Shown here piece after piece: positions 1 to 18,467 of a DNA stretch of 21,073 nt. Each line of letters opens with the position of its first letter. Position 1 is the stretch's first letter. The stretch is taken from positions 1 to 21,073 of IMG/VR virus record IMGVR_UViG_3300025137_000370; one strand, given 5' to 3'. The position numbers and the translations under genes are program-made. Below the pieces are notes generated by a model, which worked only from the letters and a program-made list of their open reading frames with translations, made no database searches and was not told the DNA's origin. Source of the stretch: a virus.

Positions 1-1
1 T

Positions 2-32
2 GGTAGGTTATTCTGTTGCTAAGAAACCTACC
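2..32 (-). other. hairpin after the tmRNA tag frame
   Basis: Minus-strand GGTAGGTT (32-25) pairs perfectly with AACCTACC (9-2) around a 15-nt loop. By position it is either the helix or pseudoknot that ends the coding piece of a two-piece tmRNA, or part of a terminator. The sequence needed to decide lies before base 1. Confidence 0.7.
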
Positions 33-55
33 GAAACTCCATTAACATTTACTGC

Positions 56-94
56 TTACGCAGCAAGTGCCATAGGTGCAAAGTTATCGTTTGC
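56..94 (-). other. tmRNA tag reading frame
   Basis: The resume codon is GCA (94-92) and the frame reads ANDNFAPMALAA then TAA. With the alanine brought by the charged tmRNA the tag would be AANDNFAPMALAA. Its start AANDNF is the one known from alphaproteobacterial tags such as that of Caulobacter, and the end ALAA is the kind of tail recognised by ClpXP. This frame identifies the RNA independently of its fold. Confidence 0.92.
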
Positions 95-176
95 GTTTAG
101 TGTTTTGACCAATAACGGAGTCATCCGACAATTCTCCACTTCTCTATTCCACGCCAGTCGATCCTATTTCGCCCCC

Positions 177-230
177 ATAATAATCCCACTTCCAAGCAGT
201 AATTCAATATCTCATCTAGAAGTGAGATTA
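177..230 (-). other. tmRNA internal spacer removed during maturation
   Basis: This is the 54-nt segment between the CCA end (231) and the mature 5' end (176). Its two ends are complementary over 12 positions, so in the precursor it extends the acceptor stem. In the alphaproteobacterial family this spacer is cut out to give the two-piece RNA. Confidence 0.85.
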
Positions 231-298
231 TGGTGGAGGCGTTGGGTACTGCCCCCAAGTCCTGTACGTCTTTCAATCCGTATCAACGAACTGTATTA

Positions 299-306
299 TA
301 TTTATA
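299..306 (-). promoter_or_regulatory. T4-type late promoter box TATAAATA
   Basis: An exact TATAAATA on the minus strand, the T4 late-promoter consensus, overlapping the -10 of the sigma70-type promoter. If both work, the tmRNA would be made early and late. Confidence 0.5.
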
Positions 307-329
307 CCATAGTTGATTTAAAATGTCAA
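301..329 (-). promoter_or_regulatory. sigma70-type promoter for the tmRNA
   Basis: -35 TTGACA (329-324), exactly 17 nt, -10 TATAAA (306-301) preceded by TGG, an extended -10. An A-tract lies just upstream of the -35. Expected start is near 294, giving an acceptor piece of about 64 nt. It shares its layout with five other sites in this window. Confidence 0.8.
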
Positions 330-342
330 GTACTTTTTTTAA

Positions 343-780
343 TTAAAGTTTAGTTCCTAATGGTGAAATTTTTAATTTACCATGACCAGTAGATAGAATA
401 CACATAAGCCGTTCCTCTACTGGCATTTGTTCTAGAAAAGTATAACTGCCTGTCTTTTGATTTTGTACCAGCATAGACACAATTTGTTTTTGACCTTCGC
501 CTGAATTTTGAATAGCAACTCTACCTATGAATACAGGAACTTCACCATATTGTTCTTTCATTCGATTAAGCATAACATCAATTCTTCCACATACTACAGG
601 TTTTGTACTTGTGATAATTTGGCCAGAAGGAATTTCAAGATTCTCAAAAGGGTTATGGGGTTTTGTCACTTCTTCTTTTGGTTCCTTTACAACATCAGGT
701 TTTGGTTCTGTTTCAGCCGATTGCGTTGTTTGACAACCCACTAGTAGAAACATCGCCATCATTATTGATAGGTGTTTCAT
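343..780 (-). CDS. small lipoprotein, unknown function
   Basis: A 145-residue protein with an N-terminal hydrophobic stretch ending in a lipobox, LVGC (Cys16), so a lipoprotein exported and lipidated by the host. A Pro/Glu/Lys-rich linker (about residues 20-45) is followed by a compact domain of about 100 residues that I do not recognise; it has two cysteines (in VVCGR and LMCIL). The start has a GGAG eight bases upstream. It overlaps the end of the upstream nuclease gene by 68 nt in another frame, so the signal-peptide coding lies inside the nuclease tail. Last gene before the tmRNA promoter. Confidence 0.75.
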   Translation of the reverse strand: MKHLSIMMAMFLLVGCQTTQSAETEPKPDVVKEPKEEVTKPHNPFENLEIPSGQIITSTKPVVCGRIDVMLNRMKEQYGEVPVFIGRVAIQNSGEGQKQIVSMLVQNQKTGSYTFLEQMPVEERLMCILSTGHGKLKISPLGTKL

Positions 781-1435
781 TTGATTTGCTCCATTCTTTC
801 ATAGAATCTTCCAACATAGGAAGATATTCTTTTTTATTTTTAACAAATTCTTGAACAGTACCATCCTCTGTTACTACTAGAATTACAATTTGATTTGTCT
901 TTAAACCAGTTCTTTCTTGAAACATCTCAGCGTATGCGGCAGTCTGAATATAATAATTTTCGTTCCAATCGTCATTACGTTCTCTAGAAGATGTTTTAAA
1001 ATCAATGATAGAAAGAGTATTTTTGTATTCTGCAATACAATCTACACGGCCTGCCACTTTATATTTATCACTATACAGTCCTGCTTCTTGTGCATAGATG
1101 TTATTCACATTTGGTAATGCACGATCTGACAACTGTTTGAATAGACAATAGGGCAAAAAATTCTTCTTATGTTTCTCTTCATCAAACTCGTTGTTAAGAT
1201 AATCTTCACACATATGGTGAACAGCTGTTCCTCTTGCAGAAGAGGTACGTGCAACATAGTTGGCAACATCATTACCAACACGTTTACGCCATTCCCATAA
1301 TCCTTCTTTTTTACGATTGGAAAGAACTGTAGTTATTGAGGGATATTTCTTCCCTTCTGGTGTTACGTAAAATCGTTTACGATTTATCGTTTCTGTTTTT
1401 ACTTCTGGTAGATTCACTGTCTTGTGATTGAACAT
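713..1435 (-). CDS. RecB-like PD-(D/E)XK exonuclease family protein
   Basis: A 240-residue protein with the RecB-type nuclease signature in order: His73 in the AVHHM helix, Asp132 in GRVDCIAEY, Asp145-x-Lys147 in IIDFKTSS, and the QTAAY motif (Gln164 to Tyr168). These residues bind Mg2+ and cut DNA in the family. Similar single-domain proteins are common in T4-like cyanophages; a role in recombination or host DNA breakdown is inference. The last 20 or so residues (Asn/Ser/Gly-rich) overlap the lipoprotein signal peptide and may be dispensable. The ATG lies 59 nt inside the preceding small gene, with a weak GAAAG as ribosome site. Confidence 0.82.
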   Translation of the reverse strand: MFNHKTVNLPEVKTETINRKRFYVTPEGKKYPSITTVLSNRKKEGLWEWRKRVGNDVANYVARTSSARGTAVHHMCEDYLNNEFDEEKHKKNFLPYCLFKQLSDRALPNVNNIYAQEAGLYSDKYKVAGRVDCIAEYKNTLSIIDFKTSSRERNDDWNENYYIQTAAYAEMFQERTGLKTNQIVILVVTEDGTVQEFVKNKKEYLPMLEDSMKEWSKSNETPINNDGDVSTSGLSNNAIG

Positions 1436-1610
1436 TATAATTTACTTTCATATTATATTTCACGTTTGATACATCTGCCCAAACGTCATAGTTTATTTTA
1501 CTTTTGTATTCTTCAAGTTTAGAAATGCCTATTTTAGTTTTAGCTTTATATTTTTCTGGCACTTTACCCCATCCTATCTCTCTATCCCATTGACTTTGAG
1601 TGTACTTCAT
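1377..1610 (-). CDS. small hypothetical protein
   Basis: A 77-residue basic, Tyr/Lys/Ser-rich protein with no recognised domain. Its start overlaps the lysozyme stop as ATGA, which supports translation, and its tail overlaps the nuclease start by 59 nt. The last third is low complexity and could be carried only by the overlap. Function unknown. Confidence 0.6.
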   Translation of the reverse strand: MKYTQSQWDREIGWGKVPEKYKAKTKIGISKLEEYKSKINYDVWADVSNVKYNMKVNYNVQSQDSESTRSKNRNDKS

Positions 1611-2047
1611 ACGTTTCGCATCCTTTCAACAAGACGATCTGCACGATTTGTTACTTGTTTATACCAGCGTGAATCAACCATTTCATCTGCAGCTGCGTTC
1701 CAATCTTTGGCATCTACTCCACGTTTCATACCTTTAAATTTAGATAGTCTAGGTCTACCCATATTAAACATCATATTTGCAATGATGAGTTGGACTTCTT
1801 CTGGTAGATCATCAAAATCATCATATAATTCATGACAATCTAAAATAACCGATTGTACATCATTTTTAAAACAATGGTTAACTCGTTCTTCTGAAACAGG
1901 AGTCCCTACTTCTGCACCATATTCTTCATCAGTATCTATGACCAAGTGGCCAATACCAAAAGTAGCTAACCCAAGATGGTCAAGATACACTTCATAAACA
2001 CAACCTTCATCAGCTGCAACTTCTTCTTGTAATTTTTCTATATCCAC
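1607..2047 (-). CDS. T4-type lysozyme (GH24 endolysin)
   Basis: A 146-residue muramidase that cleaves peptidoglycan. The T4 lysozyme triad is present with exact spacing: Glu14, Asp23, Thr29 (T4: 11, 20, 26), followed by FGIGH. The C-terminal half has FNMG and the SRWYKQVTNRADR stretch, like T4 SRWYNQTPNRAKR. There is no signal peptide, so release would need a holin or another route. The start is GTG at 2045-2047, sharing one base with the phoH stop, with AGGA 8-9 bases upstream. It is either the endolysin or a virion-associated enzyme; a second wall hydrolase is at 5103-5657. Confidence 0.9.
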   Translation of the reverse strand: MDIEKLQEEVAADEGCVYEVYLDHLGLATFGIGHLVIDTDEEYGAEVGTPVSEERVNHCFKNDVQSVILDCHELYDDFDDLPEEVQLIIANMMFNMGRPRLSKFKGMKRGVDAKDWNAAADEMVDSRWYKQVTNRADRLVERMRNV

Positions 2048-10201: not shown

Positions 10202-10575
10202 CTTCTCTTTCCTGTTGCTGGATCATCCTGTTCTTTTTTAGACAGAACTTGTAATCCACCTTTGTTATAAGCTTGACCAACAACATATTGGCCTGATATA
10301 CCTAATTTATAACTTTCATTTTGTTTAGTACACGGAGTCCAATTAGAAACATCTGTGTTGTCATTGGTGCTCTCGACAGGACTTGAACCTGTGACCCACG
10401 GCTTAGAAGGCCGTTGCTCTAATCCAACTGAGCTACGAGAACCTATTTTCATCTTCTTTAAATACTTTGCGTGTTCTTGCTCAGCAGCAAGTAACGACTT
10501 AGATTTCTTCTGTTTCTTACGTTTACGAGTACTCGTAGTTGTATAATAAACAGGTAATAAATGCATACCACTCAT
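10198..10575 (-). CDS. phage protein whose frame runs through a tRNA gene
   Basis: A 125-codon open frame on the same strand as an embedded tRNA-Arg. Residues 1-44 (MSGMHLLPVYYTTTST, then a Lys-rich helix) look like a conserved cyanophage-type protein. Residues about 45-70 are the tRNA read in frame. Residues about 71-125 (VSNWTPCTK, GISGQYVVGQAYNKGGLQVL, SKKEQDDPATGKRR) again look like a real protein. The end overlaps bS21 as ATGA. Either one protein includes a translated tRNA, or tRNA maturation cuts the message. The ATG is about at the expected transcript start, so leaderless translation is possible. Confidence 0.62.
   Translation of the reverse strand: MSGMHLLPVYYTTTSTRKRKKQKKSKSLLAAEQEHAKYLKKMKIGSRSSVGLEQRPSKPWVTGSSPVESTNDNTDVSNWTPCTKQNESYKLGISGQYVVGQAYNKGGLQVLSKKEQDDPATGKRR
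10365..10442 (-). tRNA. trnR: tRNA-Arg (UCU)
   Basis: Complete cloverleaf: acceptor GTTCTCG/CGAGAGC (one G-U), D-arm GCTC/GAGC, anticodon arm ACGGC/GCCGT with loop CTTCTAA, T-arm ACAGG/CCTGT with TTCAAGT, discriminator A and encoded CCA. The anticodon TCT reads AGA and AGG arginine codons, which an AT-rich phage uses often. It lies wholly inside an in-frame coding sequence on the same strand. Confidence 0.96.
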
Positions 10576-13297: not shown

Positions 13298-13305
13298 TAT
13301 TTATA
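13298..13305 (-). promoter_or_regulatory. T4-type late promoter box TATAAATA
   Basis: Exact TATAAATA overlapping the -10 of the sigma70-type promoter at 13300-13328, the same composite arrangement as in front of the tmRNA. Confidence 0.5.
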
Positions 13306-13328
13306 CTACAGTTAGGGTATTTTGTCAA
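13300..13328 (-). promoter_or_regulatory. sigma70-type promoter
   Basis: -35 TTGACA (13328-13323), 17 nt, -10 TATAAA (13305-13300); no TGn here. The 16 bases AAAAAAAGTACTTGAC ahead of and into the -35 are identical to those of the tmRNA promoter. The -35 contains the stop codon of the 43-residue gene before it. Confidence 0.75.
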
Positions 13329-17661: not shown

Positions 17662-18003
17662 TTATTTAGATAAGTCATTGTGCAATTTTACAAAGTATTC
17701 TGCATCTACCACTACTAAAGGTTTTTGATTATTACGTTTAATAAAAACTATAGGTTCATAATCACCAGAGTTTGACTCTGCTTGTTCGTATGACTTCCAT
17801 ACGTTAAGAGATTCTTGGTTCTTACATTCTACAGAATAGGGAAACTTCTCTCTTGCAGCACGAGCCATAATGAGGTCTTCACCACCAGCACCCATACTAC
17901 GAGATTCTACATCTTCGGGATGAACATCTAACTGTTCGATAAGTTGATCACGAACCCATTGTTGAAATCTACGACCTTTTGCTTTTGCACTACTAGTTTT
18001 CAC
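17662..18003 (-). CDS. PD-(D/E)XK-like endonuclease, Holliday-junction-resolvase-like
   Basis: A 113-residue protein. A basic N-terminal helix (KAKGRRFQQWVRDQL) is followed by SRSMGAGGEDLIM (Asp ligand), YSVECKNQ (Glu-x-Lys) and a YEQAE helix, the layout of archaeal-type Holliday junction resolvases and related PD-(D/E)XK enzymes. This fits branched-DNA clean-up in replication or packaging. I choose GTG 18003, overlapping the upstream stop as GTGA; a TTG six codons earlier is possible. Confidence 0.72.
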   Translation of the reverse strand: MKTSSAKAKGRRFQQWVRDQLIEQLDVHPEDVESRSMGAGGEDLIMARAAREKFPYSVECKNQESLNVWKSYEQAESNSGDYEPIVFIKRNNQKPLVVVDAEYFVKLHNDLSK

Positions 18004-18365
18004 AGTCCTACTTGTTCCCAATCAAATTCATCGAAACCTTGATCCCTCGGAAGTGATACGGCATGAGCTTTACATTCACCCTTTCCACCAACATCATTGA
18101 TAAGTACTCGACCTGTATCTGCAAATCCCATGATTAACATATCATAAGGAATATGATGATATCTCAAATCTTTCTCTGTTTTTGCTCGTTCACTTTCTCT
18201 ACGACCTGTGATAATTATAATACGACAACCTTGAACTTCCCATTGTCGCATCTTTTCAACTGCGCCAGGAAGTGATGTATAATCTTTAGTATGTCCGGCT
18301 TGAGGTATTGTATCGTGTTGATAATTTAAAAGTGTTCCGTCAATATCGCATATTATTGTTTTCAT
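18000..18365 (-). CDS. HAD-superfamily phosphatase
   Basis: A 121-residue protein starting MKTIICDIDGTLLNY: Asp7 nucleophile and Asp9 acid of the DxDGT motif. IIIITGRRESER supplies motif II (Thr), and GRVLINDVGGKGE the acidic end. Similar to phage polynucleotide-kinase phosphatase domains and nucleotidases; substrate unknown. I place the start at 18365 (AAAGG eight bases upstream, usual family N-terminus). The frame stays open to an ATG at 18467, adding a basic 34-residue stretch across an A9 run. Confidence 0.8.
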   Translation of the reverse strand: MKTIICDIDGTLLNYQHDTIPQAGHTKDYTSLPGAVEKMRQWEVQGCRIIIITGRRESERAKTEKDLRYHHIPYDMLIMGFADTGRVLINDVGGKGECKAHAVSLPRDQGFDEFDWEQVGL

Positions 18366-18467
18366 AATCTCTACCTTTAATTTTTTTTTACCTGATAAAT
18401 ATTTAGGAACAGGTGGGCCATTCATCTTAATTTTAAACCATTTTTTTAAACGATTTACTGTTTTCAT

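Follow-up and report, generated by a model that had tools for sequence, protein, structure and literature searches.

Comparison of phage-encoded permuted tmRNA genes indicates that the sequence separating the two tmRNA halves, the spacer, can be exchanged like the content of a slot, as it may be unrelated between relatives whose halves are nearly identical. We consider it probable (roughly three chances in four) that this spacer represents a cargo slot, in which small genes, many of them for membrane proteins, move in and out, so that one transcript would be both tmRNA precursor and mRNA, and tmRNA processing and cargo translation may be coupled. If this is true, a split tmRNA with selected small open reading frames (ORFs) in its gap would be a non-coding RNA gene that also carries protein genes, a role that the permuted form allows, and the question is raised whether maturation of the tmRNA is linked to translation of the cargo. 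This family-level spacer pattern matters more than the single gene from which the analysis set out. That gene, located at one end of a 21,073-nt stretch of viral DNA (hereafter "the window"), has a 54-nt spacer that would represent the non-coding state of the slot. It is very likely a functional-looking permuted ssrA of a T4-like marine phage, which would mature into two pieces and serve in ribosome rescue.

The permuted tmRNA gene and its phage contig

An earlier note, made from the letters of the window alone, had claimed a permuted two-piece tmRNA on the minus strand and proposed a covariance search with the Rfam alpha_tmRNA model. This search yielded a match well above the gathering threshold (RF01849; 147.5 versus 50 bits, E = 6.1e-41), covering the full model (positions 1-355 of 355; window 333-2, not truncated), and the tmRNA_permuted model also matched over its full length (RF04321; 117 versus 47 bits, E = 1.2e-22; model positions 1-213 of 213; window 291-56). 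The E-values, together with the full-model coverage for alpha_tmRNA, exclude a chance match; ARAGORN, when run on the window, did not call the gene. Both halves are complete in the window, and the earlier description proved correct to the base, i.e., the CCA end (231) is transcribed ahead of the GGGGGCG 5' end (176), and the matched acceptor stem, the self-complementary spacer and the tag frame all lie where they had been placed. As a promoter-like element sits at 329-299, the gene region is taken as approx. 1-330, with the following features:

324-329, minus strand: TTGACA, a -35-like box 17 nt ahead of TATAAATA; TTGAC with this spacing is recurrent upstream of phage permuted tmRNAs
299-306, minus strand: TATAAATA at the -10 position, overlapping TATAAT at 300-295
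231-294, minus strand: acceptor (tRNA-like 3') piece, from the RF04321 and RF01849 alignments, with its start predicted from the promoter
242-258, minus strand: T-arm (258-242; pairs 258-254/246-242), inside the acceptor piece
231-241, minus strand: acceptor 3' strand (241-235), A234 and CCA (233-231), reading CTCC-A-CCA and ending at 231
177-230, minus strand: spacer between the halves, 54 nt, from folds and an ORF scan
2-176, minus strand: coding (mRNA-like) piece, with 5' GGGGGCG at 176-170 and its 3' end at the limit of the covariance model (RF01849, 333-2)
56-94, minus strand: tag reading frame, GCA...GCG TAA, encoding ANDNFAPMALAA
2-32, minus strand: 3'-terminal hairpin formed by GGTAGGTT and AACCTACC around the conserved loop AGCAACAGAA, at the end of the RF01849 match and closing at position 2

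All seven positions of the acceptor stem (176-170/241-235) are paired, and the third pair, G174-U237, is the alanine identity pair G3-U70. The spacer is predicted to form a 16-pair helix that extends, or stacks on, the acceptor stem (fold of 241-170: -33.7 kcal/mol, z = -7.1; tmRNA precursor fold: z = -5.3), and an ORF scan of these 54 nt found nothing beyond 3 codons. The coding piece reads GGGGGCGAAATAGGATCGAC from position 176. Its tag frame (94-56; GCA AAC GAT AAC TTT GCA CCT ATG GCA CTT GCT GCG TAA, i.e., ANDNFAPMALAA-stop) spans the Ala resume codon, a degron-like end and the stop codon TAA.

The window's proteins match T4-type DNA primase, ribonucleotide reductase, T4 RNase H (C-terminal domain), PhoH, phage lysozyme and phage exonuclease. 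These proteins and the neighborhood (T4-type replication genes, viral relatives) agree with the T4-like phage contig that had been claimed; as the window is a 21-kb fragment, the absence of other genes from it means little. The tmRNA gene touches the first base of the window, i.e., the contig edge, which would suit a piece of host ssrA, contamination of the contig or an edge misassembly, and the earlier note had itself allowed for a host chromosome or a misassembled host ssrA. However, a separate viral contig (L159) shares 99.9% identity with window 1-1952 (1,952 bases) and extends beyond this edge into further phage genes, among them ORFs resembling ThyX (thyX) and a single-strand DNA-binding protein of the T4 type (both named by eye, without a profile search), and the gene is thus neither a host fragment nor a misassembly. 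As the neighborhood was also seen in at least five other viral contigs and both halves are complete, we regard an origin from host DNA or misassembly, already refuted by L159, as vanishingly improbable.

The gene order PhoH, lysozyme, exonuclease, small lipoprotein-like ORF and tmRNA is common to four other loci (L011, L140, L188 and L323), and the order PhoH, exonuclease and tmRNA is also found in the OM43 phage Melnitz and the SAR11 phage HTVC008M. Melnitz is the nearest cultured relative for both PhoH (69%, as compared to 63% for HTVC008M) and exonuclease, followed by HTVC008M, and a SAR11 host is therefore unproven; the ribonucleotide reductase is nearest to that of SAR116 phage HMO-2011. 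The window also encodes a tRNA-Arg(TCT) (10365-10442, minus strand), as has been reported for Melnitz, and in two other loci a tRNA gene follows approx. 10 bases after the tmRNA (L125, 7962-8034; L175, 2327-2399). A plasmid search gave no match.

Exchange and coding capacity of the spacer

Among the matches listed in pattern scans of IMG/VR, both tmRNA halves were found in 369 of the 422 loci analyzed, a set gathered mostly for matching, so that this proportion is not a frequency. In L140, both halves are 100% identical to those of the window (71 and 95 nt compared) and the neighboring proteins are only 51-93% identical, while the 31-nt spacer is unrelated. L196 has halves 97-98% identical to those of the window and the same tag, with a 159-nt spacer encoding MKNPLVREVSKWMFKAYILWSICADITLLAGIIYLIFF. 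Among the matches listed, 102 of 304 pairs of loci with near-identical halves differed by at least 30 nt in spacer length. Pairing between the two ends of a spacer exceeds that of shuffled spacers.

Many of the longer spacers appear to be protein-coding. Among the matches listed, 146 of 277 distinct spacers had at least 90 nt, and an ORF covered at least 70% of the spacer in 106 of these 146, as compared to a mean of 13.65 and a maximum of 19 in 40 dinucleotide shuffles. Codon-aligned comparison gave pN/pS ratios of 0.26, 0.24 and 0.26 for the three largest spacer-ORF families (30, 13 and 11 members, respectively) and of 0.12, 0.16 and 0.15 for three smaller ones; a few groups with two or three members showed higher or uninformative values. 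As grouping by protein similarity could favor low pN/pS ratios, substitutions between spacers of the same length were also counted by position modulo 3, with no frame chosen. The counts were strongly uneven for spacers of 159 nt (P = 1e-7), 177 nt (P = 1e-5) and 247 nt (P = 6e-10), and the bias was weaker or not significant at other lengths. A Shine-Dalgarno (SD)-like sequence was located no more than 14 nt from the CCA in 58 of 120 coding spacers, as compared to 12 of 157 others. Since in about half of the coding spacers the SD-like site directly follows the CCA, where the spacer helix forms, tmRNA processing and cargo translation may be coupled.

Members of the cargo family MSEEKKNG... (73 aa) were found at 68 viral loci, i.e., between tmRNA halves at 7, with only an acceptor-like match at 1, and without either half beside the ORF at 60; a few of these 60 mostly free-standing copies directly adjoin a tmRNA. 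The family MVKITKEN... (20 loci) is located mostly in the spacer, with both halves found at 11 loci and one half at 4 more.

Small spacer ORFs were seen in L091, L151, L196, L519, L074, L018, L021, L052, L404 and others, several families being under purifying selection and some clearly hydrophobic. The start of a HAD-like protein encoded elsewhere in the window (18000-18467, minus strand; ...PKYLSGKKK) resembles spacer ORFs of Melnitz (MFKWLSK...; ...PKYLSG) and of L163 (...IKYLSG). A contig assigned to a Muricauda metagenome-assembled genome (MAG) (L124; NHBR02000136.1) carries, at approx. 1989-2283, a permuted tmRNA with a spacer ORF from the phage spacer family ICINNYS; it is probably a phage contig binned into that MAG. 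A PHROGs search with the spacer ORFs gave no convincing match, tblastn of three spacer proteins against cultured phages gave none, and the spacers of cultured Roseobacter, Rhodobacter and Mesorhizobium phages (93-109 nt) showed no convincing ORF.

Promoter, tag and possible function

A TTGAC 17-19 nt before a box starting with TA was present in 173 of 285 distinct tmRNA upstream regions, and in 123 of these 173 the box was TATAAATA, which is identical to the T4 late-promoter box; as the sequences are related, these counts are not independent. In front of ordinary ORFs at these loci, TTGAC was mostly followed by TATAAT-like boxes; TATAAATA occurred there 116 times on the sense strand as compared to 35 times on the other, with a correctly spaced TTGAC in only 4 of those cases. 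We read this pattern as a tmRNA promoter that may be usable by both the host sigma-70 and the phage late system. Such a paired TTGACA/TATAAATA promoter suggests early as well as late expression, which bears on the purpose of a phage tmRNA; for Melnitz, by contrast, a purely early promoter was proposed (PMC9004378). A second promoter-like element of the form TTGACA-N17-TATAAATA is located at window 13298-13328 (minus strand), with 4 bases between it and the start codon (ATG) of an ORF for 79 aa (13293-13054).

Control of the tmRNA by a glutamine riboswitch was considered and rejected, as the aptamer is located after and not before the tmRNA both in Melnitz (L002, 10402-10450) and in L029 (1019-1072). 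As it follows the tmRNA, the riboswitch would more likely act on the next gene, as opposed to the control of the tmRNA stated in the Melnitz abstract (PMC9004378). Searches around the gene in the window and in L159 detected no such riboswitch.

Among 143 tags read in viral permuted tmRNAs by a search that demanded a final Ala plus A/V/I/S, 124 ended in LAA, 10 in IAA and 4 in VAA. A gene for SmpB was looked for in 28 virus records and found in none, so that host SmpB must serve. Overall, the full tag frame with its LAA end, the conserved halves and the missing SmpB fit a tmRNA that would use host SmpB, AlaRS and proteases. Transcription would start near 294, from the sigma-70-like -35 and T4-late-like -10 promoter, and the acceptor stem and spacer would fold into one long helix, from which host RNase P and 3'-processing enzymes would excise the spacer. 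The two products, an acceptor RNA with CCA (231) at its 3' end and a coding RNA with its 5' end at 176, would stay joined by the acceptor stem. Once alanylated and in complex with host SmpB, the molecule would enter ribosomes stalled on truncated mRNAs, which are probably frequent as the phage breaks down host nucleic acid; ANDNFAPMALAA would be added to the stalled product, the ribosome freed, and the stub directed by its LAA end to host ClpXP-type proteases. We infer transcription, processing, charging, rescue and benefit from the observed sequence, position and conservation and from the predicted structure.

Different accounts of the gene's role were weighed against this evidence. Tags vary widely on otherwise near-identical RNAs (ANDNFAPMALAA, ANDNFASQDFALAA and ANDNFVFEDYALAA), as might be expected if the tag had been retuned to give proteins a different fate (protection or slower degradation) and did not merely supplement the host tmRNA. 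However, the C-terminal LAA is kept in most tags, and we consider retuning unlikely. Far less credible is a decoy or inhibitor of host trans-translation, comparable to the tRNA-like-domain-only tmRNA of mycobacteriophage DS6A that ties up SmpB; while the phages encode the RNA without SmpB (28 virus records) and tmRNA is inhibited by a truncated molecule of a similar kind (PMC4131195), a tag would be superfluous in a decoy, and here the tag frame is retained in full, including its degron-like end. We likewise give very little credence to a functionless passenger copy that imprecise excision or integration left behind at a host ssrA site, even though ssrA often serves as a site of integration and gene exchange with a prophage was brought up in the Melnitz paper (PMC9004378), as identical halves amid proteins that differ by 7-49%, and a conserved promoter of its own, speak for selection. 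Supplementing ribosome rescue during the destruction of host mRNA thus appears to be the likeliest benefit.

Relation to known tmRNAs

The earlier note's view that a permuted tmRNA in a T4-like phage is little described does not hold, given the T4-like marine phage Melnitz, for which a permuted two-piece tmRNA was reported in 2022 (PMC9004378), the accompanying survey predictions, and HTVC008M. That survey of 18,146 phage genomes gave 53 unique two-piece tmRNA predictions, of which 50 belong to phages sampled from marine or aquatic sources, and permuted tmRNAs were reported for 17 of 47 Melnitz-cluster contigs (PMC9004378). The window's gene is one more member of this described set. The interchangeable, often coding spacer is a new observation, of which the window holds the non-coding form: a 2025 tmRNA database paper (PMC11915505) names nothing but a tRNA gene and a repetitive element as content of such intervening sequences, and no report of spacer ORFs was found in the literature searched, which left most subscription papers outside.

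The permuted ssrA of Melnitz (MZ577095-MZ577098; PMC9004378) shares with the window's gene the alpha-type permuted form, a similar locus after PhoH and exonuclease, and the TTGACA...TATAAATA element. It differs in its tag (ANDNYVPVDYALAA as compared to ANDNFAPMALAA), in its 142-nt spacer with an ORF that is preceded by an SD-like site and runs into the coding half, and in the glutamine riboswitch after the tmRNA, a riboswitch that was not found in the window's sister contig L159. In Pelagibacter phage HTVC008M, tmRNA_permuted matched NC_020484 at 145161-145370 (L123, 8379-8588), where the record has no tmRNA annotated; this gene shares the permuted form, a similar gene order and a self-paired spacer (49 nt) with the window's gene, but has the tag ANFNEYALAA and is without the TTGACA-TATAAATA element just upstream. 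Compared to the alphaproteobacterial two-piece tmRNA (Caulobacter type; RF01849, RF04321), part order, consensus, T-arm and tag position are the same, whereas the window's copy is phage-encoded. The one-piece tmRNAs of the mycobacteriophage Bxz1 group and Bacillus phage G (PMC4131195) are likewise phage-borne, but are not described there as permuted and hence are without a spacer between the CCA and the 5' end.
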